Source: a virus. From it: DNA of 37,906 nucleotides. A program made the translations under genes and the position numbers. Shown piece by piece: positions 14,566 to 37,906 of the stretch (positions are counted from its first letter, which is position 1; every line of letters starts with the position of its first letter). Below the pieces are notes generated by a model. It had not been told where the DNA came from. It worked only from the letters and a program-made list of their open reading frames with translations, and made no database searches. The DNA is taken from the IMG/VR virus record IMGVR_UViG_3300036760_000519, positions 1-37,906 of that record; one strand, given 5' to 3'.

Positions 14566-15546
14566 TCAGGCGCCCCAGAGATACTTGAAGTAGCGCTCGT
14601 TCTGGATGGCGTCGATGGATTGGGTCGTGACGCCGTGTTCGGCAGCGATCTCTTTGCGAGGCCGTTTATCGTCGTGGATGGCGCGAGCCTGCTCGTCGGT
14701 AAGTTTGGCACAGTACGGTTTGTTTCGCCGCCTGAACTTCGGCGCGATCAGCCCCTCAGTCGCCTCGCGCCAAGTCAGTCTACGGCGGATATGACTAACG
14801 GTCCCGTGGTCGATTCCAAGTTCCCTTGCGATCTCGCGACCAGGACGCTGGTCAATGAAGACCATCTTCGCTTGTGCCTGCGTGAGCTTCGCAGCTTCCG
14901 GCCGGGGCTTGCCTCGCGACTGCGCAGCCGAAGCCGCAACACCTTTGTGCCAAATTCCAGCAATATTGCGACGGCTGGATGCTTGTCGCCTTTCGGTCCA
15001 CCGCTTCCCCTGCCCCACCCTGATCGGTGCATAGATTCCGTTCAGGTGCGCCCAGCTATCGCCGCGCCGCGCATCCCGGACCGTGTCGCGCTTGGCCGCG
15101 ACGCCGAATTCAGCCTCCACCATCTCGACCATTTCGCGATTGACGATGTGAGCCTTGGCCGGGTCGCGGATGAACTCGACGATGTCGTTCGTCAGCAACG
15201 CTCGGTATTGATCCTCGCCACGCCGCAGCAGATGCTCGGCACCGTCTCCGCCAAGCGTGCAGTTGTAGCCACCACTCTTGACGTGCGTTCCATGGGCGCA
15301 AATCAGGCCACGCTCGACGGTCAGCAGTTCGTCGATGCTCGTCGCTTCGTACAGCGTGGCGATCGTGAAGGCATCAACGCCGCACTTCCGCATGTCGCGA
15401 TAGAGCGGGAGCGGGTTGCCGTTGTTCGCATCGAAGACGTGACAGGTCCACCGCCGACGCAGCCCGACCGTGCTGATCCCGATGTACGTCCTACCGTTGC
15501 GGCTGTTCACGATCTTGTAGACGATCATCCTGAATTTATACCTCAT
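14566..15546 (-). CDS. GIY-YIG homing endonuclease (free-standing)
   Basis: A 326-aa protein from the ATG at 15546, which lies 2 bases after the stop of the preceding gene (TGA GA ATG). An ATG at 15528 is an alternative, and a longer frame to 15591 has no support. The N-terminal domain has the GIY-YIG core: 'IVYKIVNSRNGRTYIGIS', then 'GLRRRWTCHV' with the conserved Arg and 'TVERGLI' with the likely catalytic Glu. The C-terminal half is a string of DNA-binding modules: 'PGREIARELGIDHGTVSHIRRRLTWR' and 'PRKEIAAEHGVTTQSIDAIQNERYFKYLWG' are helix-turn-helix repeats like those in I-TevI-type and HNH homing enzymes. It sits between two tail genes without disrupting either, as selfish homing endonucleases do. 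Confidence 0.9.
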   Translation of the reverse strand: MRYKFRMIVYKIVNSRNGRTYIGISTVGLRRRWTCHVFDANNGNPLPLYRDMRKCGVDAFTIATLYEATSIDELLTVERGLICAHGTHVKSGGYNCTLGGDGAEHLLRRGEDQYRALLTNDIVEFIRDPAKAHIVNREMVEMVEAEFGVAAKRDTVRDARRGDSWAHLNGIYAPIRVGQGKRWTERRQASSRRNIAGIWHKGVAASAAQSRGKPRPEAAKLTQAQAKMVFIDQRPGREIARELGIDHGTVSHIRRRLTWREATEGLIAPKFRRRNKPYCAKLTDEQARAIHDDKRPRKEIAAEHGVTTQSIDAIQNERYFKYLWGA

Positions 15547-15548
15547 TC

Positions 15549-15794
15549 TCACGAAGCGCAAAATGGAAGTGGGGTCTCGCTGTCGTCCCAATCGTTTTCG
15601 GCCGCCGTCACGTCCGCGTAGACGTTCGGCGCTTCGCTTGGGGCGGTGAAGTCGTTGATCGCGGGAGCTACATCGGCGAAGGCCGACGTCGCGATGTCGT
15701 TGTCAACCCATACCGAGAGCGCGGCGGCGACGACCATCCATGGCGGCTGGCAGTCGAGCGCCGCGGCTTTCGATCGCCAGAAGGTGAGGATCAT
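15549..15794 (-). CDS. Small 81-aa hypothetical protein
   Basis: An 81-aa protein between the Gly-rich fibre and the GIY-YIG gene (8 bases after the first, 2 before the second). It begins MILTFWRSKAAALDCQPPWMVVAAALSVW and ends with an acidic stretch (ENDWDDSETPLPFCAS). The middle repeats an Ala/Asp pattern (DVAPAINDFTAPSEAP, VYADVTAAENDW). No family is recognised. It may be a small tail or fibre accessory protein. Confidence 0.5.
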   Translation of the reverse strand: MILTFWRSKAAALDCQPPWMVVAAALSVWVDNDIATSAFADVAPAINDFTAPSEAPNVYADVTAAENDWDDSETPLPFCAS

Positions 15795-17410: not shown

Positions 17411-17845
17411 CTAGTGTTTTCTTCCTTCCTGCCTGGCACGCCTGTCGTGGGCTTTTCTGCAGGTTCGGCAATGTCGGCGGCCAGTACGCGGGTTCGTATA
17501 GAGATTCATCCCAGAAAGGTCGTGACCTTCCGGGCAACGCGTCTTCGCGACGTTGCGCGCGGCCTGGGTACCGGCACCGCGCAGCAGATTCTCGCGATAG
17601 GTCACCAGTTCCAAGTGACCCGGATTCACGCACCATCTATTGCGGCACAGATGATCAAGGCAAACGCGCGCGCTCCGCGGAGGCAGCGTCAGCGAATGAT
17701 CTCTTTCGAACGCGAATCTATGTGCCAGCACGCGCTTTTTAATGCCGACATCATGGAACATTCCGTAGCCGGCGTTGGTGATTGGCCCGAGATATCGCCA
17801 GCATCCGTTGGCTTCATGTCGCACGCGCGTGTCAAAATCTGCCAT
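17411..17845 (-). CDS. HNH endonuclease (free-standing, homing type)
   Basis: A 144-aa protein. It contains the HNH core typical of phage proteins: 'CLDHLCRNRWCVNPGHLELVT' (residues 62-82), with D64-H65, N74 and H77 and structural Cys residues, preceded by 'AHRFAFERDHSLTLP'. A second metal-binding element follows, C104-P-E-G-H108 with C126-x-x-C129. The start directly abuts the stop of the 66-aa gene (TGA ATG) and the stop abuts the 535-aa fibre start. It probably nicks or cleaves DNA to spread itself. Its exact fit between two fibre genes suggests insertion without damage to the operon. Confidence 0.9.
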   Translation of the reverse strand: MADFDTRVRHEANGCWRYLGPITNAGYGMFHDVGIKKRVLAHRFAFERDHSLTLPPRSARVCLDHLCRNRWCVNPGHLELVTYRENLLRGAGTQAARNVAKTRCPEGHDLSGMNLYTNPRTGRRHCRTCRKAHDRRARQEGRKH

Positions 17846-28991: not shown

Positions 28992-29417
28992 TCAATACAC
29001 GGTGTCGGGTGCGTCGATGACCATCTGCACATCGGCGTCCTCGATGATACGGCAGGGGACGCCGTTCCAGGCGATCATGCGGCCCGACTGCGGCGTGATC
29101 ACGATCCAGTCGCCTACCTGGCAGTACGGTTCGGCGAAATCCCGCCGGCTGTCGTTGCGATAGGCCTCGGCGCCGACCATGACGACGAAGTGCGCCTTGC
29201 CCTGCCAGATGTCCTCATCGCGGGTCTTGTCGGGCAGGTAGAGGGTGTGACCGCCCTTCACCGTCATCTGGTCCGGCCGGACATAGCTCGCGGCGAAGAT
29301 GCGACCGCCGCAGACCTTGCGCGGCAGCCGGCCCAGCATCTGGAGCAATTGCTGAGCCGGATCGACGTCGTGCTTCATCGCGTTCATCGGCGTCGCAGCT
29401 CGGGCAACAAGTGCCAT
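28992..29417 (-). CDS. GroES-like co-chaperonin (phage Cpn10 type)
   Basis: A 141-aa protein. The conserved pattern is 'GRIFAASYVRPDQMTVKGGHTLYLPDKTRDEDIWQGKAHFVVMVGAEAY', then 'VGDWIVITPQSGRMIAWNGVPCRIIEDADVQMVID'. This matches the GroES/Cpn10 beta-barrel order: mobile loop followed by (G)GI-L-PD, G-V-VG, VGD-V and a final R-I-ED-D(I/V) strand. Phage T4 gp31 and similar proteins replace host GroES so that GroEL can fold the capsid protein. Its place between portal and scaffold fits a capsid-folding role. It has a weak N-terminal extension of about 35 residues. The family call is by motif only. Confidence 0.72.
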   Translation of the reverse strand: MALVARAATPMNAMKHDVDPAQQLLQMLGRLPRKVCGGRIFAASYVRPDQMTVKGGHTLYLPDKTRDEDIWQGKAHFVVMVGAEAYRNDSRRDFAEPYCQVGDWIVITPQSGRMIAWNGVPCRIIEDADVQMVIDAPDTVY

Positions 29418-29420
29418 GGC

Positions 29421-29642
29421 TCAGGTCTCCTGCTTTGGTTGGGGCCTCGCGGGATCGACAAGGGCCTTGCGCTGGGCGTTGAGAATCGCCTGCGCCTGCC
29501 GCAATCCCCTGATGAAGCCGGTGTTGTGCTTGTACTCTGCGAAATCCTTCGCGGCGCCCTCGGTCAGCGGGCCCGCGTAGCTGACGATCTCCTTGGCGAT
29601 CGCCGCCGATGCGTTGTTGTAAAGCGCATCGAGCAGCTTCAT
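29421..29642 (-). CDS. Small 73-aa hypothetical protein
   Basis: A 73-aa helical protein (MKLLDALYNNASAAIAKEIVSYAGPLTEGAAKDFAEYKHNTGFIRGLRQAQAILNAQRK). It overlaps the portal gene by 4 bases (29639/29642) and ends 3 bases before the GroES-like gene. The 'EYKHNTGFIRGLRQA' segment is a recurring small-phage-protein pattern that I have seen near portal genes. The function is unknown. Confidence 0.6.
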   Translation of the reverse strand: MKLLDALYNNASAAIAKEIVSYAGPLTEGAAKDFAEYKHNTGFIRGLRQAQAILNAQRKALVDPARPQPKQET

Positions 29643-32137
29643 TTTTTCGGCCGCCTGCTGGCGCCATGGGCGCGTGCGGCCGCAGTCCGGGCCTGCGCTT
29701 CCTTCGCTCTCGCGTTGATCTCGGCGACCGTCTCCTTGCTGGCGAGTTCGCGCAGCTTGATGCGCTGGTCGATGCGGTGAAGGCCGCGGTCCTGCGCCGC
29801 CGCCTCCATCTCGGCGTAGTGCTTCTGGAGCGCCGCCCGCGCCTCAGCGAGCTGCACCCGGTTGTCGATCTCGGCGTTGCGGGCATCGGCCGCAATCTTC
29901 GCCGCCTTCACTTGGTTCTCCATCATCTTGACCATGTGCTCGTCGGCGCCGAAGGGACCGACGGCCATCTGCGCCATCTCCGCGTGGAGATCTCGCGTGA
30001 AGCTGGCGATCTCGCGCGACAGCAGCTGCTCCACCTGCGGCGGCAACGGCTGGCCCGGAGGAGGCAGCGGCATGCCGATCATGGATTCGACCAGTTGGCG
30101 GTAGTGCATGGCGAAGTGCTCGACGACGTGCGCCGCCAGCATCGGCACCATCTGGGGTGCCGCCTGTGCCGCCGGGCTCATCAGGATCGGCAGGTGCGAG
30201 GCGATGTGCGACTGGTGATCCTGGTGGATGTCGACCTTGAGCGGCATGCCCTGCATGACCGCGATGTTTTCCGAGGCCGGATCCATCGGCATCGCCTGCG
30301 GCGGGTCGGGATTGATCAGGTCGTCGATGTCGCCGAAGCCCATGATCGACATACGCCGCCGCAACGTGGCTTTCCGGTTGAGCTCGGCCGGATACTCCTG
30401 CTGCAGCCGGCCCAGCGCATCGGCGCGCACCATCCGCTGGACATGACTCGGCATGTTGGGATCGGATGCCGGGATGATGTTGACGAGTTTGAAATCCTCG
30501 CCCGTCGCCTCGCCGACCCAGCCGTCGTCGGTTTCGAAGCCCCATACCGCCTGCGGATTGCGGGCGAACTCGTCTTTCAGAAGCCGGAATTCGAGCGCCT
30601 GGCTGCGGTGCGCGCGCTTGTGCACCGCGCTGGTGATTTTCATCGCCTGCTCGATCAGGGCAAGCGTGGTGCCGACCGGCGCATCCTGCCGGCCCTCGCC
30701 GATTTGAAGCTCGGCCGTGCCGCCGACGCGCTCGCCGGCGCCGACCACCATCTGCAACATCTGCGCCAGCATGGCCGACGGCTCACGGAACGGCAGTTCC
30801 ATGACGACTTCCCTGATCGGCCGGCCGCCGGTCTTGATGCGGCGCCCCTCGCCCGGCGCCACGCGGATGGTGTTATCGCCCTTCTCGTCCTCGACGACGT
30901 CATCCTGCAGCCATGCCGGGAAGTTTCTGAACTGGCCGGCGTCGATCAGCTCGCGGAGCATCTGCGTCGCCGCGACTTCGGGATTGCCGATGATGTGGAT
31001 CAGGCCCAGCGAGTAGAAGCCGGGGCCGGGGACGTAGTCGTATTTGACGTACATCTGCTTCGGCCGGACCATCGGGTCGCCTTCGCGCCAGAAGCGCTGC
31101 ACTCGCAGGATGCGCCGGCTGTTGAGATCGGTGGTGACCAGCCAGGTCAGAGGCAGGTCGCTGTTCTCGCCGCGAATCTTGTGCTCGAAGCCTGGCAGGT
31201 CCTTCTCGCAGATGGTCTCGAACAGGGTGTGGCGGTCGTCTCTTCCGGAGACCCAGAGCGTCTTGCGACCTTCGATCTCGGCGAGCGCGGTGGCGATCGG
31301 GCTCATCAACTCGGTCGGGCGCTGGAGCGAAACTTTGCGGAAGAACTGGAGCAGCTGCAGTCGCCTGAGATCGCTCGTGCGCATGTGGATGCGGTTGGTG
31401 ACGCGCTGGGCGGTCTCGATCGACGATGCGTTCATGTTCACGATGACGTCGTCGGGCAAGAGGAAGGCCGACACCGGGCGCCCCAACAGCGGGCAAGTGT
31501 AGACCTTCTTGAAGGTCGTCCCGATCGCCGCTTTGTGGAACAGCATGCGGTCGAAATCGGGGTAATACTCGCTGGCGGTCTGCGTGAGGAAGAAGTTGAA
31601 GGCCTCGCGCACGCGCTCCGCGGCGTCATCGAGCTGTTGCGTCGACTTGCCGATCACCCGCGTTTTCGCCGGCCCCTCGGCCGGCAGCAGTTCGCCGTAG
31701 GCGGTGGCCTGATAGCGAAGGATTGCCTCGAGCAGCATCGGATGGCGCGCGGCCGACGCACCCTCGAACGGATGGCTCTGCGTCTCCTCGATCTTGAGGC
31801 CGAGTACTTTGAGGCCCTTGACGTAGTCGGTCTCCCAATCCTTCCGGCTCTGCAGATCGGTATTTATGCCTTCGAGCAGCTCGGCCGCCCACTGGTCAAG
31901 AACTTGGTCGGGCAGCGCCTCGGCGACGTTGGCGTTGTGGCCGTTGACGTCGACGTCGGGTCCGGTCTGCTGCTGGCCGCCGAAGCTGACCGTGGCGCCG
32001 CCGTCGCCGCGTTCGGTGACCATCGGCGTCGCCGGCGGGGCCAGCGCGATCGTGATGGGCGCCAGACCGGCGGCATCGAGGCCGTTCCGCTGGCGTAGCG
32101 GGTCATCGTAGGTGAGGCGGTCGGGGGCGACGGCCAA
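29639..32137 (-). CDS. Portal protein
   Basis: An 832-aa protein, in the size range of the large portals of short-tailed phages. Key patterns: 'WETDYVKGLKVLGLKIEETQSHPFEGASAARHPMLLEAILRYQATAYGELLPAEGPAKTRVIG' (clip and stem side) and 'FNFFLTQTASEYYPDFDRMLFHKAAIGTTFKKVY', the latter being a common portal core segment. Further on, 'YDYVPGPGFYSLGLIHIIG' and 'IREVVMELPFREPSAMLAQMLQMVVGAGERVGGTAELQIGEG' follow. The last 200 residues are a helical barrel-like region rich in Gln/Ala/Met. It lies between TerL and the capsid assembly genes. The start is 15 bases after the TerL stop. Confidence 0.88.
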   Translation of the reverse strand: MAVAPDRLTYDDPLRQRNGLDAAGLAPITIALAPPATPMVTERGDGGATVSFGGQQQTGPDVDVNGHNANVAEALPDQVLDQWAAELLEGINTDLQSRKDWETDYVKGLKVLGLKIEETQSHPFEGASAARHPMLLEAILRYQATAYGELLPAEGPAKTRVIGKSTQQLDDAAERVREAFNFFLTQTASEYYPDFDRMLFHKAAIGTTFKKVYTCPLLGRPVSAFLLPDDVIVNMNASSIETAQRVTNRIHMRTSDLRRLQLLQFFRKVSLQRPTELMSPIATALAEIEGRKTLWVSGRDDRHTLFETICEKDLPGFEHKIRGENSDLPLTWLVTTDLNSRRILRVQRFWREGDPMVRPKQMYVKYDYVPGPGFYSLGLIHIIGNPEVAATQMLRELIDAGQFRNFPAWLQDDVVEDEKGDNTIRVAPGEGRRIKTGGRPIREVVMELPFREPSAMLAQMLQMVVGAGERVGGTAELQIGEGRQDAPVGTTLALIEQAMKITSAVHKRAHRSQALEFRLLKDEFARNPQAVWGFETDDGWVGEATGEDFKLVNIIPASDPNMPSHVQRMVRADALGRLQQEYPAELNRKATLRRRMSIMGFGDIDDLINPDPPQAMPMDPASENIAVMQGMPLKVDIHQDHQSHIASHLPILMSPAAQAAPQMVPMLAAHVVEHFAMHYRQLVESMIGMPLPPPGQPLPPQVEQLLSREIASFTRDLHAEMAQMAVGPFGADEHMVKMMENQVKAAKIAADARNAEIDNRVQLAEARAALQKHYAEMEAAAQDRGLHRIDQRIKLRELASKETVAEINARAKEAQARTAAARAHGASRRPKK

Positions 32138-32152
32138 TTCGGTTGGGACCTC

Positions 32153-34762
32153 CTAGTCCACGGCGTAAAGGGGTTTCGGCGGCGGCTTCGGCCGCAGTTT
32201 GTCGAGATAGCGCTGGTCGACCTCGTCGGGCGGCATGATGTAGCCGTTGCGGCGCATCCAGATGAGCGCCTGCGTCACGGTGTCGACGCGATCCTTGATC
32301 CTGATCGCGGGAAATCCGCCGCAGTCCTCGATGACCGGGCCGGCCCAGGCTCGATCGAGCGCCCAGACCACGCCGAGCCGATCGACCGGCGCCTTGCCCG
32401 GCACCGCGTGACCGTTGGCCTTGATGACGGTGTCCTTGCCGGGGCTGAATATCCCCTGGCAGGCATAGGCGCGGTTGATCTTGTCGCCGTATCGCTTCGG
32501 ATCGAAGACGATGATCTGGCGCTCTTTGACGCGGCGCTGCAGCTCCTGCTGCACCGAGATTCCGTTGGCCTTGTTCTCGATCAGGATCGTCATCGGCCGG
32601 AAGCGCCGGATCAGGTCGTGGAGATGGTCGACGAGCTCGGGCTGTTCGAGACGGTCGCACCAGGCGTACATCAGCAGCGCCTGCGGCTGGCGCGTCTCCT
32701 GGTCGCGGAAGCGGCCCCACAACGTGGCAGCCGAGCAGTCATTAGCTTCCTTTTCGGTGTAGGCGGTGTCGATCGACAGCAGCCGGAAATCGGTCGCCGG
32801 GGGCTTGCGGTCCGGCCAGATGCGCCACCAATGTACTTTGAGGATGCCGCCTCCCCGCGGCACGGGGCGCTGTTGCAGCTGCCCGGCGCGGACGAAGTCG
32901 GTTTCCATGTCGTCCTTGAGCTTCTGCGCCTTCTCCGGCGTGAACATCTCGGGCCAGAGAATATCGCCGGGCTCGCGGCGCCAATCCTTTCGACAGCGGT
33001 TCGGATGGTCCGGCTCGTACTCGAACGGCAGACAGATGTGCCGGAAACCGCGCTTGATCAGGTACGCCGACAGGTCGTCGGTGTGCAGGCGCTGCATGAT
33101 GACGACGCGTCCACCGGAGCCGGGCGGCCGCATGCGTGACGACCAGACATCGCGCCACCAGTCCTGCACGCCCTGGCGCGCCAGTAGACTGTGGATCTTC
33201 ACCGCGTTATGCGGATCGTCGCAGGCAAGATGATTGGCTCCGAATCCGGTGCCGGCGCCGCCGATCGAGGCGATGGCGCGCGTCCCGGTGGCGGTGTTCT
33301 CGAAGCTGTCCTTCTCGTTCTGGTCGAGCGAGAGACTGACCTTGTGGCCCCAGCGCTCTTGAAACCATTCGCTTTCGATCAGCCGCCGGCACTTCCGGCT
33401 GTCGCGCTCGCTCAGGTTGTCCGAGTATGACGAAAACAGGAAGCGGCGGAACGGATTCCAGGTCCACTCCCAGGCCGGCCAGAAGACGCACAAGAGCAGG
33501 GAGTTGTGTGTAACCACGTTCGTGCGGCCGACGACGTACAGGCCGTCAGGACGGTCAACGCTCAGACAGTGGCCGATCTCCGGCGTAGTGGACTTACGCA
33601 CAGCGACGATGGCCCGCTTCCGACGCGCCCAGTCGAACCGATCGATCTGCTTGCGCGGGGTCGCGGTCGGGATCGGGCGATCAACTTGGAAGCCAATTTG
33701 ATAGACCCTCTTGTCGCTCGTGTACGCGCCGTACCCAGGAGCATCGGTAACCATGGTGTACGCCCGGAACCCGAGCGAGAAGACCAAGCGTTCGATCTGT
33801 CCCGCCAGTCGAGTGTCGCATGTCGAGATGCGAACGCGCCCACGCCGTCGATCCACATGGCCGTCCGTATCGACCAGGCCGGCCAGGAGTTCCAGGCGTT
33901 GATCTTCGGATGCCGTCACGTAGGCATCGGGAATGTGTTTGTTGTCGAACAGATCCAGATCACGCAGGCGCTCAACGACACCTTGCCTGGTGAAACAGGA
34001 TCGCTGTGAGAATCCGCTGCCGTCGCTAACTGTTTCCACACGATACCCCAGCGCACCGAGCTTCTCGATGTGGGCGTCGTCGCGGACGTCGTGTGTGATG
34101 CAAGGCTTGGTTGACGTCCCATCGCCAAGCCAGCAGCCGAGAAAATATGGATGCAGCGGCAACTCTTTGGCGTCGAATCTCAGAGAATGCGTGTCGGGGA
34201 TGAAGAACCGATTGCGGCCCCGCTCAACCGCCATGCCTGCCAGCGTGGTCGTATCCAGCGTCTTCCACTGTCTCGCCCACCGATCAAAGACCGTCCACAA
34301 ATGATCGCCGTTGCACTTGATCGTCTCGCCATTGCTGAACTCGACTTCATGGTCGGCCAACGCCTTTGACGAAACCGCACGGACACGTGTGGGCATCCCG
34401 TCCGGGCCGAAGACGAAATCTCCTGCCCGGATGTCGCCATGCCGGCGATACCCGGACGGCGTCGCGATCGGCGTACTGTCGGCGATCAGCTTCATGTGTC
34501 CCGGCGGGATGTTGAGCAGCAGGTCGGCGGTCTCGCCCCTGCTGACCATCTCCAATTCTTCGCAGATCAGCCGGATGTGCCGACCGTCTACGTACTCCTG
34601 TCCCGGCTCGACGACGTGCCAGCCATCGCGAACGAAGCGGTAGAGGCTTCGCTCGCAGGCCTCACGCTGTTCCGCCAGGCGGAGATGCGAGAAGAGCTGC
34701 GATACTTCTTTCGTCCACTCCGGCGGTACGGAATCGGGCGGCAAGCTCTGCTCTGGTCTCAT
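32153..34762 (-). CDS. terL: Terminase large subunit interrupted by an intein
   Basis: A TerL of 869 aa as translated; after removal of the intein (residues 92-420) it would be 540 aa, normal for the family. The ATPase domain has the P-loop 'NIPPGHMK' (84-91), which continues with S421 only after splicing, Walker B 'HLACDDPH' (D515-D516) and coupling-type 'MQRLHTDDL' (556-564). The nuclease domain has 'LLSIDTAYTEKEANDCSA' (D665) and 'TILIENKANG' (E729), RNase H-fold acidic residues. The enzyme packages DNA through the portal and cuts it. The start overlaps the TerS end by 101 bases, unusually long for this compact operon, so a later start is possible. Without splicing the P-loop is split, so TerL activity should depend on splicing. 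Confidence 0.92.
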   Translation of the reverse strand: MRPEQSLPPDSVPPEWTKEVSQLFSHLRLAEQREACERSLYRFVRDGWHVVEPGQEYVDGRHIRLICEELEMVSRGETADLLLNIPPGHMKLIADSTPIATPSGYRRHGDIRAGDFVFGPDGMPTRVRAVSSKALADHEVEFSNGETIKCNGDHLWTVFDRWARQWKTLDTTTLAGMAVERGRNRFFIPDTHSLRFDAKELPLHPYFLGCWLGDGTSTKPCITHDVRDDAHIEKLGALGYRVETVSDGSGFSQRSCFTRQGVVERLRDLDLFDNKHIPDAYVTASEDQRLELLAGLVDTDGHVDRRRGRVRISTCDTRLAGQIERLVFSLGFRAYTMVTDAPGYGAYTSDKRVYQIGFQVDRPIPTATPRKQIDRFDWARRKRAIVAVRKSTTPEIGHCLSVDRPDGLYVVGRTNVVTHNSLLLCVFWPAWEWTWNPFRRFLFSSYSDNLSERDSRKCRRLIESEWFQERWGHKVSLSLDQNEKDSFENTATGTRAIASIGGAGTGFGANHLACDDPHNAVKIHSLLARQGVQDWWRDVWSSRMRPPGSGGRVVIMQRLHTDDLSAYLIKRGFRHICLPFEYEPDHPNRCRKDWRREPGDILWPEMFTPEKAQKLKDDMETDFVRAGQLQQRPVPRGGGILKVHWWRIWPDRKPPATDFRLLSIDTAYTEKEANDCSAATLWGRFRDQETRQPQALLMYAWCDRLEQPELVDHLHDLIRRFRPMTILIENKANGISVQQELQRRVKERQIIVFDPKRYGDKINRAYACQGIFSPGKDTVIKANGHAVPGKAPVDRLGVVWALDRAWAGPVIEDCGGFPAIRIKDRVDTVTQALIWMRRNGYIMPPDEVDQRYLDKLRPKPPPKPLYAVD
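33503..34489 (-). mobile_element. Class 3-type intein with LAGLIDADG endonuclease in TerL P-loop
   Basis: The inserted 329 residues start LIADSTPIATPSGYRRHGDI (block A-like) and end GRTNVVTHN before S421. The first residue is Leu, not Cys or Ser, so the usual class 1 nucleophile is absent. Instead the WCT triplet is present: Trp156 in block B (GDHLWTVF), Cys399 in block F (GHCLSVDRPDGLYVV) and Thr418 in block G (VVTHN). This is the signature of class 3 inteins, which use the block F Cys. His419, Asn420 and +1 Ser are as expected. Two LAGLIDADG motifs, YFLGCWLGDG (206-215) and LLAGLVDTDG (292-301), indicate a homing endonuclease. Bethlehem phage TerL is a known class 3 example. Confidence 0.9.
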
Positions 34763-35210
34763 CTGCGGTCAGTCGGGCGAAATCGCCGGGGGCGCCGATC
34801 TCGTGCTTGTGCACGGCCACGCCGACGCCGACGTCGCGGCCGAGGATTTCCAGGTTCTTGCGCGCCTCGGCCCAATTGCGCGGGCGGCTGTCGATCACCC
34901 CCCCCTTGCCATCGAGGATGTCGATGAACTCGGCGGCGTGCTCGTAGAGGCGCCGGAAGCCGGTGACGACGTAGGCGCGGTCGATGAGCGCCTTCTCGGC
35001 AGCCTTCGCCCGCCGGCGCGCGACCTCATGGGCGATCTTGGCCGATTGGAAGAACAGCGAGGCCTGATTCCGGGCCGTCTTCTGCGTCTGGCCCTTCCAG
35101 AAGCCGGCCATCGAGTAGGCGTCCACCTTGGTGGCGCCGCTGAGGTAGTGATTGACGGCGGTCTCCTCCATGACGGTGAAGGGAGCCTCCGGGGTCCGAA
35201 TCTTTGGCAC
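34662..35210 (-). CDS. terS: Terminase small subunit
   Basis: I use the GTG at 35210 (VPKIRTPEAPF...), which has GGAG 7 bases upstream; the longer frame to 35255 has no such site. The 182-aa protein has 'MEETAVNHYLSGATKVDAYSMAGFWKGQTQKTARNQASLFFQSAKIAHEVARRRAKAA', an N-terminal helix-turn-helix-like segment as in TerS DNA-recognition domains. A long helix 'KALIDRAYVVTGFRRLYEHAAEFIDILD' and an oligomerisation-like 'RKNLEILGRDVGVGVAVHKHEIGAPGDFARLT' follow. It lies directly upstream of TerL, with overlapping ends. It binds phage DNA to start packaging. Confidence 0.8.
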   Translation of the reverse strand: MPKIRTPEAPFTVMEETAVNHYLSGATKVDAYSMAGFWKGQTQKTARNQASLFFQSAKIAHEVARRRAKAAEKALIDRAYVVTGFRRLYEHAAEFIDILDGKGGVIDSRPRNWAEARKNLEILGRDVGVGVAVHKHEIGAPGDFARLTADETRAELAARFRTAGVDERSIAALLASPPGGTA

Positions 35211-35265
35211 GGGCAATCTCCGTGGGTTGAGAGCGGCGCTAAGACCGCTGGGCAATGCGTCTAGG

Positions 35266-35472
35266 TTATCTTTGCTTGAGCGCCCGCAGCATGGCCGCGC
35301 GCCGCGCTCTGCGAGCGGCCGTTGCAGCCGCGCCGGTCGCCGCCCGCTCCATCCTCGTGGTCACATCGAAGCCTGGACACTCGATGATCGACTCCTCCTC
35401 GATCAGATAGGCTGGCAGTCCACATTTCGCGCAGTGACGCGCGGCATCCAATGAGTGCTGGTGTTTCTGCAT
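35266..35472 (-). CDS. Small Cys-containing protein
   Basis: A 68-aa protein from the ATG at 35472, chosen for GGAGG 9 bases upstream. A longer in-frame start at 35529 lacks support. It has 'HSLDAARHCAKCGLPAYLIEEESIIECPGF', with C-x-x-C plus a later Cys that may bind a metal, and a basic Ala/Arg-rich C-terminus 'AAATAARRARRAAMLRALKQR'. The basic tail and possible zinc site suggest nucleic-acid binding. No family is named. It lies 55 bases before the TerS start. Confidence 0.6.
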   Translation of the reverse strand: MQKHQHSLDAARHCAKCGLPAYLIEEESIIECPGFDVTTRMERAATGAAATAARRARRAAMLRALKQR

Positions 35473-35525
35473 AACGTGCGGCCTCCAGGTTATGAGCCTG
35501 GCGTCGGGCGCGCACATCGCCGGCG

Positions 35526-35828
35526 TCAAAGCTTGCGCCCGTTGGTCGGCAGGATCAGGGACGAGGCCGGCCCAGGCTGCACCACGATAGACACCGGGAT
35601 TTGCTTCTCGGGGTCGCGCTTGTGTTTACCGCACCAGTTGTCCGGCGGCACGTCGGGGAAGAAGCTGAACGGCATCGGCTCGATCTGGCTCGACACTTGG
35701 TTCGCCACGTGCATCAGTTGCCCCTTGATGGGCTCGGCGTGGCACGCGCCGAGCTCGGGGCGCTTCGGCAGGTGCTCGTAGAATTCGCAGGTCGCGCACA
35801 TGGCGCGGTCGCCCATGCTGTCTTTCAT
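35526..35828 (-). CDS. Small Cys-rich protein (zinc or Fe-S-binding-like)
   Basis: A 100-aa protein from the ATG at 35828 (MKDSMGDRAMCATCEFYE). A longer frame to 36104 is antisense-like Arg-rich sequence over the NusG-like gene. Cys residues are in the pattern C-A-T-C ... GACHAEP ... W-C-G-K-H, a small family with the 'CxxC...C....P......FP.V..d.WCGxh' layout that I have met in phages and bacteria. It could bind zinc or an iron-sulfur cluster. 116 bases separate it from the NusG-like gene; I see no gene or clear hairpin in that gap. Confidence 0.65.
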   Translation of the reverse strand: MKDSMGDRAMCATCEFYEHLPKRPELGACHAEPIKGQLMHVANQVSSQIEPMPFSFFPDVPPDNWCGKHKRDPEKQIPVSIVVQPGPASSLILPTNGRKL

Positions 35829-35944: not shown

Positions 35945-36685
35945 TCAATAGGTGGGGGTTTGGAGCTTCTCCACCTGCAACGGGTCGTAGGCTTCGGTGT
36001 GGTCGGTTCCGAACATCTGGACGTGCGTGACGTTGACCGTTCCATCGGAACCGATCGATTCCACGACCGAGCGGCAGCCGGTCATCTCCTCGAAGCGCGC
36101 CCACTTGCCCGTCGTGCGCACACGATCGCCTTGCTTGAACTGCGCAGCCAGACCGACCGACGTCAGGTCAGGCGGCGATTCGAACAGCCCTGCATCGGGG
36201 TCGATCGGCACCGGCTCCTCGACAATGCCGGTCTTCGGATCGATGCGGACCGACTTGGCCCAGTCTAGCCAATTGCACTCCGGGCACAGCTTCTTGCGAT
36301 GTACGATGCAGCGGTCCCCGCACGCACAGTAGCCGAGCGCCGGCAGGTAGTGCGGATCGGTCTCGGACCACAGCACTTCGGCCACGTAGCGGGTTTTCTT
36401 GATGCGGGCGACGTCATCGGCGATGCGCTTCCGGCTGCTGGCGTCAACCGCCACGAAGATCCAGGGCGGGAAGTAGCCGCGTTTCACGGTAATCGGCTTG
36501 CGAGGCCGGCTGTTGCCCATCCGCGGCCGCGCCCAAACGTCGCGGTAGTGCATCCAGTAGGTTTTGAATCCCGCCTGTTGCAGATGGGCCAGCGCCGCCG
36601 GCTCCCCGCCACCGGAGCGGCCACCCATGAACCAGGGCAGGCTCTCTGCCTCGACCACAACCCAGCGCTGGCTCAGGGACGCCAC
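35945..36685 (-). CDS. NusG-like transcription antitermination factor with Cys-rich insert
   Basis: A 246-aa protein with GTG start at 36685, coupled to the 54-aa gene by overlap. Residues 6-105 fit the NGN domain: 'RWVVVEAES', helix 'EPAALAHLQQAGFKTYWM', loop, 'ITVKRGYFPPWIFVAVD' (the 'LFPGYVFV' strand of NusG), and a helical end 'DDVARIKKTRYVAEVL'. Residues 183-246 fit a KOW domain: 'FKQGDRVRTTGKWARFEEMTGCRSVVESIGSDGTVNVTHVQMFGTDHTEAYDPLQVEKL'. Between them is a Cys cluster C120-x-C122-x3-C126 ... C134-P-E-C137, a zinc-binding insert not in housekeeping NusG. Specialised NusG paralogues (RfaH, LoaP) keep RNA polymerase going through long operons. It lies at the start of the packaging and head genes, so it may do this for the late operon. 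Confidence 0.78.
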   Translation of the reverse strand: MASLSQRWVVVEAESLPWFMGGRSGGGEPAALAHLQQAGFKTYWMHYRDVWARPRMGNSRPRKPITVKRGYFPPWIFVAVDASSRKRIADDVARIKKTRYVAEVLWSETDPHYLPALGYCACGDRCIVHRKKLCPECNWLDWAKSVRIDPKTGIVEEPVPIDPDAGLFESPPDLTSVGLAAQFKQGDRVRTTGKWARFEEMTGCRSVVESIGSDGTVNVTHVQMFGTDHTEAYDPLQVEKLQTPTY

Positions 36686-36837
36686 CGGTACAGACCGAAA
36701 CGAACGGCCGCATAATTGGTGGCCAGATTGACGACTCCGGTCCTGACGGCACCGTCGATACCGTCTATGACATAGCCGACGATCACGGAGATACCGGCCG
36801 TCACCATGATCAGCCAGAACAGTTGGCGCCCGCTCAC
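36673..36837 (-). CDS. Small membrane protein (54 aa)
   Basis: A 54-aa protein starting at the GTG at 36837, which overlaps the stop of the 90-aa gene (GTGA). The longer in-frame start at 36897 has a Gly/Arg-rich extension with no support. One hydrophobic segment 'LFWLIMVTAGISVIVGYVI' is a likely membrane helix, and the end is 'NLATNYAAVRFGLYRWRP'. Its stop lies 13 bases into the NusG-like gene. It may be a holin-like or other lysis/inner-membrane protein, but no family is recognised. Confidence 0.55.
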   Translation of the reverse strand: MSGRQLFWLIMVTAGISVIVGYVIDGIDGAVRTGVVNLATNYAAVRFGLYRWRP

Positions 36838-37106
36838 GGCTGTTTCGGCTCCTCCGCCGGCGCCTCGTTCTGGCTTTTGGGCTTCTCCTCGACGCACCCC
36901 GCCACCTGGTAGCGCGAGAACACGTAGTCCTCGGGCTTGGTGCCGGCGGGGATCGGCAAGGGATTATCCCAATTACGCCTGAGCAGCGTCACCCGCATTT
37001 CCTCGCAGGCGGGCCTGTCGGCAAACGCGATGGTCTGGGCGGGCTTGGTCTCGACCGAGCCGTCGCCGTGGTAGAGGAGGGCGACGAAGGTTAGGATGAT
37101 ATTCAT
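36834..37106 (-). CDS. 90-aa hypothetical protein, possibly exported
   Basis: A 90-aa protein with ATG at 37106 and AAGGAG 6 bases upstream. The N-terminus MNIILTFVALLYHGDG is hydrophobic but short for a signal peptide. The middle has 'ADRPACEEMRVTLLRRNWDNPLPIPAGTKPEDYVFSRYQVAGCVEE' with two Cys, and the tail is charged Pro/Glu/Lys (EKPKSQNEAPAEEPKQP). It overlaps the 54-aa gene by 4 bases. No family is recognised. Confidence 0.6.
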   Translation of the reverse strand: MNIILTFVALLYHGDGSVETKPAQTIAFADRPACEEMRVTLLRRNWDNPLPIPAGTKPEDYVFSRYQVAGCVEEKPKSQNEAPAEEPKQP

Positions 37107-37170: not shown

Positions 37171-37906
37171 TTACGTCCGACCCGCGATGTGCCGGTACTC
37201 GGCCGGCGGGATATCGTAACCCCACGCGACAGCATTTAGCGGCGTGGTCACGGTACTGGGAACGCGAAGGAAATATTTCTTCAAACTGCCATCCGCCTCG
37301 GGCGTCCCGTTCGTCACCTCGACGATCTGCACAGCCACGTCCCCGGCCCGTTCCTTCCGCCAGAGGATGCCGAACTCGTCTTCGCCCATCTTCACGGCCC
37401 CTCCATCCATGAGCCAGCGCTTGACCCCATAACGTTCGATCAACACGCGGCGGACCTCGACGTTGACCTCGCAATCGATCTGTGTGGCCGTGATGGTGTT
37501 GGGCTTCTCGATGACGAGCTGAGGCACTTGGGTGCCGCGCCAGAACCAGTAGCGGGAGTAATTGGGCCAGCTGACGGCGGGTCCATCTTCGGCGTGAAGG
37601 CGCTCGCCGAGGATCTTCATGACTGGCCTCTCGACTGCGATGACCTCGCACTTGGTCACCCACAAAATCCACAGTCCGGCCTCGTAGGCACTGACAAACG
37701 GCAACCAGATGCCGACCCAGCGGGTCAGGGCGGGATGATTTGTGGGAAGGGCGCTCTCCGCGGCGCTCCACGCGGCGCTCTCCGCGGCGTTCCACGCGGC
37801 GCTCTCCGCGGCGCTCCTCGCGGCGCTCCACGCGGCGCTCCACGCGCCGCTCCACGCGGCGCTCCTCGCGGCGCTCCACGCGGCGCTCCTCGCGGCGCTC
37901 TCCGCG
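37171..37906 (-). CDS. DUF6745-like protein with A-x-S-A repeat N-terminus (5' partial)
   Basis: The frame is open to the right edge (245 codons), so the gene starts outside the window. The visible N-terminus is 13 tetrapeptides of the form A-[E/R/W]-[S/N]-[A/G] encoded by the 12-bp repeat. The rest runs 'LPTNHPALTRWVGIWLPFVSAYEAGLWILWV...', 'RLHAEDGPAVSWPNYSRYWFWRGTQVPQLVIEKPNTITATQID', 'EVRRVLIERYGVKRWLMDGGAVKMGEDEFGILWR', and 'VEVTNGTPEADGSLKKYFLRVPSTVTTPLNAVAWGYDIPPAEY'. This order (LH..GPAV..., VRRV.IERYG, V.N.TPE.DGs.k.Y.LRVP.......AVAW) is that of DUF6745 proteins as I recall them. Function is unknown. A TTG at 37704 would give 177 aa, but nothing favours it because the homologous region continues upstream. 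Confidence 0.78.
   Translation of the reverse strand, partial: AESAARSAAWSAARSAAWSGAWSAAWSAARSAAESAAWNAAESAAWSAAESALPTNHPALTRWVGIWLPFVSAYEAGLWILWVTKCEVIAVERPVMKILGERLHAEDGPAVSWPNYSRYWFWRGTQVPQLVIEKPNTITATQIDCEVNVEVRRVLIERYGVKRWLMDGGAVKMGEDEFGILWRKERAGDVAVQIVEVTNGTPEADGSLKKYFLRVPSTVTTPLNAVAWGYDIPPAEYRHIAGRT
37751..37906. repeat. Thirteen 12-bp tandem repeats
   Basis: The window ends in exactly 13 copies of a 12-bp unit, consensus GCGCTCCACGCG on plus with variants GCGCTCTCCGCG, GCGCTCCTCGCG and GCGTTCCACGCG, and it continues past the edge. Twelve is a multiple of three, so each copy adds four residues (A-x-S-A) to the DUF6745-like protein on the minus strand. The third to fifth bases from the unit's 3' end vary, giving Glu, Trp or Arg at the second residue. 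Confidence 0.9.

Follow-up and report, generated by a model that had tools for sequence, protein, structure and literature searches.

A very divergent NusG-like protein with a putative zinc site, encoded upstream of the terminase genes of an uncultured phage

By the window we mean the whole stretch of DNA analysed, a 37,906-base fragment of an uncultured phage that is recorded in IMG/VR and has a GC content of 65%. On its minus strand an open reading frame with a GTG start (35945-36685) encodes a protein of 246 amino acids, recognised from the open frame, its coding GC pattern and a match to NusG/RfaH profiles. The GC content by codon position of this ORF (0.63/0.49/0.83) resembles that of the other real genes of the record, and the plus-strand frames that overlap it lack a coding GC pattern. 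The ORF is a genuine gene, with the coordinates and strand given by the first-pass annotation.

All neighbouring genes described here are also on the minus strand, in the order DUF6745 protein, 90-aa ORF, 54-aa ORF, NusG paralogue, 35-aa ORF, 100-aa Cys-containing protein, CxxC ORF, TerS, TerL and portal, with the structural genes following the portal and reaching position 1. The DUF6745 protein (37171-37704; E 8e-38) lies at the end of the record, and the 90-aa ORF (36834-37106) has a coding GC pattern and a Shine-Dalgarno sequence. The 54-aa ORF directly upstream of the NusG gene (36673-36837), read from the sequence, overlaps the NusG start by 13 nt, an arrangement of the translational-coupling type. 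Three small ORFs separate the NusG gene from TerS; they include the 100-aa protein (35526-35828), identified by a homologue in phage L037 that is likewise kept upstream of TerS (1773-2153, E 8e-10) in a genome without NusG at this place, and the CxxC ORF (35261-35515), also read from the sequence. Downstream lie the genes for the terminase small subunit (34662-35255; phrog_51, E 6e-5), the intein-interrupted large subunit (32153-34762; phrog_38, E 9e-70, with a LAGLIDADG_3 match) and the portal or head-to-tail connecting protein (29639-32137; phrog_1216, E 1e-9, and annotated homologues).

The location upstream of TerS/TerL was therefore as originally described, but the gene does not stand at the head of a packaging operon, as had also been claimed, because at least three ORFs of the same orientation lie ahead of it before the record ends. 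The gene is near the head of the cluster, not at it, and the upstream end of the cluster is missing from the record. The proposed operon of about 36 kb held in one respect, in that every ORF with a coding-like pattern is on the minus strand and about 36 kb is co-oriented, but gaps of 135-479 nt occur along it. Sigma-70-like sites showed no excess (2 compared with 2.0 in shuffled sequences), and terminator-like sites in the record were at chance level. The contig edge carries a 12-bp tandem array of 12.6 copies (37750-37900), possibly an assembly end.

Searched as a single sequence, the 246-aa protein matched nothing in Pfam, PHROG, NCBIfam or PDB, nor in phage, plasmid, IMG/VR or GTDB DNA. We therefore compared it with NusG profiles built stepwise from 8, then 11, then 21 members, the last alignment including added plasmid RfaH-like proteins, E. 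coli RfaH and a protein of phage G. Only a marginal match, at the N terminus, was obtained with the 8-member profile. The ORF became the best non-member among 8,329 ORFs with the 11-member profile (E 0.089), and with 21 members it was the top non-member in hmmsearch against the same number of ORFs (E 0.0014). Profile-profile comparison by hhalign with the 21-member alignment gave a probability of 95.5% (E 1.4e-8, score 55.4) over residues 16-243, covering both NGN and KOW, whereas the same comparison reached a maximum score of only 20.8 for shuffled sequences (n = 120) and 21.5 for the other ORFs of the window. With a 10-member alignment, a separate comparison reached 78% (E 1.7e-5), and a bacteria-only NusG/RfaH profile gave 70% (E 4e-5) with both domains covered. 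Among the sub-profiles, RfaH-like proteins alone produced the best NGN match (86.8%, E 4e-6), and a phage-only NusG profile was weaker and matched NGN only (37%, E 3.6e-4). Neither the NGN nor the KOW profile was significant when used separately, so the NusG assignment rests on the full collinear match. These comparisons support the view that the protein is a very divergent phage NusG paralogue with NGN and KOW domains. The first-pass annotation, made by eye, had thus named the family correctly where every single-sequence library failed, and the NGN and KOW resemblance that it reported is genuine, although visible only with a family profile.

From the profile alignments, the NGN domain spans approximately residues 6-115 (36341-36670; RWVVVEA..., GYFPPWIFVAVD, RIKKTRYVAEVL) and the KOW domain approximately residues 183-242 (35960-36139; FKQGDRVR ... 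VNVTHVQMFGTDHTEAYDPLQVEKL). Both domains of the NusG/Spt5 superfamily were found on the one chain: NGN by a profile match over residues 16-115 with controls, and KOW by the collinear continuation of that match to residue 243, which is weak when taken alone. The N-terminal pattern RWVVVEA...E..AL.HLQQAGFKTYW...KRGYFPPWIFVAVD...IKKTRYVAEVL aligns with NGN, its core motif being retained in the form FPPWIFV (compared with FPGYVLV), and the C-terminal pattern FKQGDRVR...SVVESI..DG.VNV.HVQMFG...QVEKL aligns with KOW. The equivalent of E. coli NusG F165, a contact to S10/Rho, is kept in 'MFG', and the Arg that follows it is lost.

AlphaFold2 models made with one or two sequences were of low confidence (pLDDT 39 and 50). 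Within them, the predicted order of secondary structure in the NGN region was b-a-b-b-a-b-a, with local pLDDT up to 81, and the order over the whole protein fits NGN followed by KOW, as far as low-confidence models can be read. A fold search with the weak model returned nothing significant; the NGN domain of E. coli NusG appeared only at rank 22 (E 0.09), and ACT, PII and S6 folds matched the model as well as the NusG NGN did.

The protein carries the cluster C120-x-C122-G-x2-C126-x2-H129-x4-C134-x2-C137 (36275-36328, minus strand), with the five Cys at exactly the positions first reported; the sixth Cys of the protein, at 204, lies outside it. Under random placement, five of six Cys would fall within 18 residues with a probability of ∼3.5e-4. 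Zinc binding is proposed because the spacing C-x-C-G-x2-C-x2-H-x4-C-x2-C is typical of zinc knuckles, and the cluster is probably a structural zinc site. A comparable cluster was present in none of the 21 NusG/RfaH family members, the nearest being a plasmid paralogue that has 4 Cys within 20 residues but arranged differently. A scan of IMG/VR with the Cys pattern for a sister protein hit at least 80 loci, and none of the 80 matches listed was NusG-like; among the matches listed in our IMG/VR searches, the window protein is the single known copy of a NusG with a Cys cluster. The Cys module is the new feature of this protein. The cluster had been described as part of a linker between NGN and KOW. 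It is real, but its placement is ambiguous. In the 21-member hhalign alignment it follows the last NGN helix and so belongs to the linker, whereas in the 10-member alignment that helix begins at EEPVPIDPDAGLF and the cluster occupies the loop preceding it. Either the linker between NGN and KOW or the last loop of NGN may therefore hold the cluster. Redox sensing by the cluster, also raised at the outset, was rejected as unsupported.

A NusG paralogue upstream of TerS/TerL is already present in annotated phage genomes and is not in itself new. In Sinorhizobium phages phi3LM21 and phi2LM21, Mesorhizobium phage MseS-P1 and Nostoc phage JY10 such a gene stands just before the terminase genes and itself usually follows a replication-initiation gene; Agrobacterium phage Rivra and Rhizobium phage PPF1 have it near the end of the record. 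The proteins of phi3LM21, MseS-P1 and Rivra, the annotated phages for which membership was checked, match PHROG 6386 ('transcription antiterminator'), as does that of L053, a relative of our phage by its portal protein. L053 encodes a PF02357 protein (42.5 bits; cut-off 22.2) directly before TerS, TerL and portal. It is the only one of 11 portal-family relatives, counted as those with at least 2 kb of sequence upstream of TerL, to have a NusG gene there; the closest portal relative, L037 (portal ∼70% identical), has none. PF02357 was found only in L053/L060 among the relatives of TerL, portal and virion proteins, no NusG was found in the capsid-protein relatives scanned, and a scan of GTDB contigs with the NusG alignment yielded no confirmed relatives. 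The same gene in the same place in related phages, for which the first-pass annotation had suggested a search, is therefore found in phi3LM21, phi2LM21, MseS-P1, JY10 and L053, with a sporadic distribution in the phage's own family.

The window protein can be compared with several known systems. Like the PHROG 6386 proteins (phi3LM21, phi2LM21, PPF1, MseS-P1, Rivra and JY10), it is phage-borne with NGN and KOW, and four of those six phages have the gene in the position of the window gene, just upstream of terminase; however, its divergence is too great for PHROG to be matched directly, the N-terminal extension of those proteins is missing from it, and they in turn have no Cys/His cluster like its own. 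The NusG proteins of A. aeolicus and T. maritima (PDB 1m1g, 2xhc) are enlarged chains related to the profile, with an extra inserted domain II; these inserts are not known to be Cys clusters. The best NGN sub-profile match was to RfaH and its plasmid and alphaproteobacterial relatives, proteins that serve long operons (PMC6391919), although the window protein differs from RfaH in its Cys insert and in that no ops element was found. LoaP and UpxY are also specialised NusG paralogues, and the genes for them accompany the long operon on which they act (PMC6391919), whereas we found neither a LoaP-type RNA hairpin nor an NCBIfam match for the window protein.

The reading that we favour, with a probability of roughly 55%, is that the protein is a NusG paralogue of the RfaH, LoaP or phage-antiterminator type that promotes RNA polymerase processivity over the late genes and carries a structural zinc site. 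RfaH and LoaP keep RNA polymerase processive over long operons (PMC6391919, PMC7819879). By analogy, the NGN domain would bind the clamp of the host RNA polymerase and displace host NusG, and the polymerase so modified would resist pausing and Rho across the long late gene cluster. As a small zinc knuckle with a structural role, the Cys4-6(His) module would make NGN or the linker larger or more stable, and it may also assist in recruitment to nucleic acid. The protein may act in cis on its own cluster or in trans. Antitermination of late genes is plausible by analogy with RfaH and LoaP; the NusG gene is co-oriented with, and upstream of, the terminase, portal and structural genes, and unrelated phages have NusG paralogues in the same position. 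Against this reading stand the failure to find a sister protein with the Cys cluster in the searches described, the low confidence of the structure models and the lack of a recruitment element: ops-like sites with two mismatches numbered 40 (43.7 expected), no Rfam family was found near the gene, no LoaP-type hairpin was found in a record whose upstream end is missing, and local RNA folds were near chance, although the real leader may be outside the sequenced fragment. Moreover, because most portal relatives, including L037, lack a NusG gene, late genes can be expressed without one.

The main rival to late-gene antitermination is a general anti-Rho or host-takeover role, in which the paralogue acts globally in the host, displacing host NusG and weakening Rho-dependent silencing of foreign DNA. 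We regard this as a tentative alternative. It draws on the same fold evidence from hhalign and its controls, on the lack of a recruitment element near the gene, and on the retention of the F165 equivalent with loss of the Arg next to it. Against it, unrelated phages repeatedly have such a gene next to terminase, which suggests a link with the late genes. It is unlikely that the gene is instead an accessory or decaying acquisition with no essential role, its divergence reflecting relaxed selection. The sporadic distribution in the family and the failure to detect a close relative in phage, plasmid, IMG/VR and GTDB searches would fit such a history, whereas the intact frame, the strong coding GC signature, the retention of both NGN and KOW and the ordered Cys/His module would not.

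We consider it very improbable that the protein is not a NusG at all, but a ferredoxin-like protein joined to a zinc finger whose resemblance to NGN and KOW is coincidental. The failure of single-sequence searches, the equal fit of the weak model to other folds and the lack of significance of the split profiles all point that way, but a full-length collinear match far above the controls, repeated with a bacteria-only profile, argues for NusG. More speculatively, the protein may be a NusG of bacterial type that has a zinc module of its own in the same chain, docked on NGN; convergent with Spt4/Spt5, it would set polymerase processivity or recruitment for the late genes and perhaps be modulated by metal. 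Spt4/Spt5 does pair an NGN domain with a zinc module, with Spt4 as a separate protein (PMC7819879). In the window protein, which is of bacterial type, the cluster is in the same chain. The likeness is one of analogy only, and we hold this idea to be a long shot.

Phage-encoded NusG paralogues are almost undescribed in the open-access literature that we searched, although NusG is, to our knowledge, the only universally conserved transcription factor family. A role analogous to that of lambda Q, which the first-pass annotation had proposed, is speculative: antiterminators of that type work from a qut site at the late promoter, and no late promoter was identified in the record. The repeated placement of NusG paralogues by terminase genes suggests a strategy for late-gene processivity different from that of lambda Q. 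To these paralogues the window protein adds a candidate metal site, and it demonstrates that proteins of this kind can go unrecognised by all standard annotation libraries.

An intein of ∼330 aa interrupts TerL at the Walker A site (PPGHMK / LIADSTP...VVTHN / SLLLCVFWPAW) and contains a LAGLIDADG domain. It has no Cys, Ser or Ala at position 1, the motifs GDHLW, HCLSV and VVTHN are present, and we infer from its sequence that it is a class 3 intein; it is shared with L002 and probably also with L003. Two homing-type or HNH endonucleases are encoded among the tail genes on the minus strand, one of the GIY-YIG/HNH homing type (14566-15591) and one HNH (17411-17845). Between the portal and capsid genes, a minus-strand ORF (28992-29417) weakly matches the GroES co-chaperonin (phrog_3188, E 8e-5).
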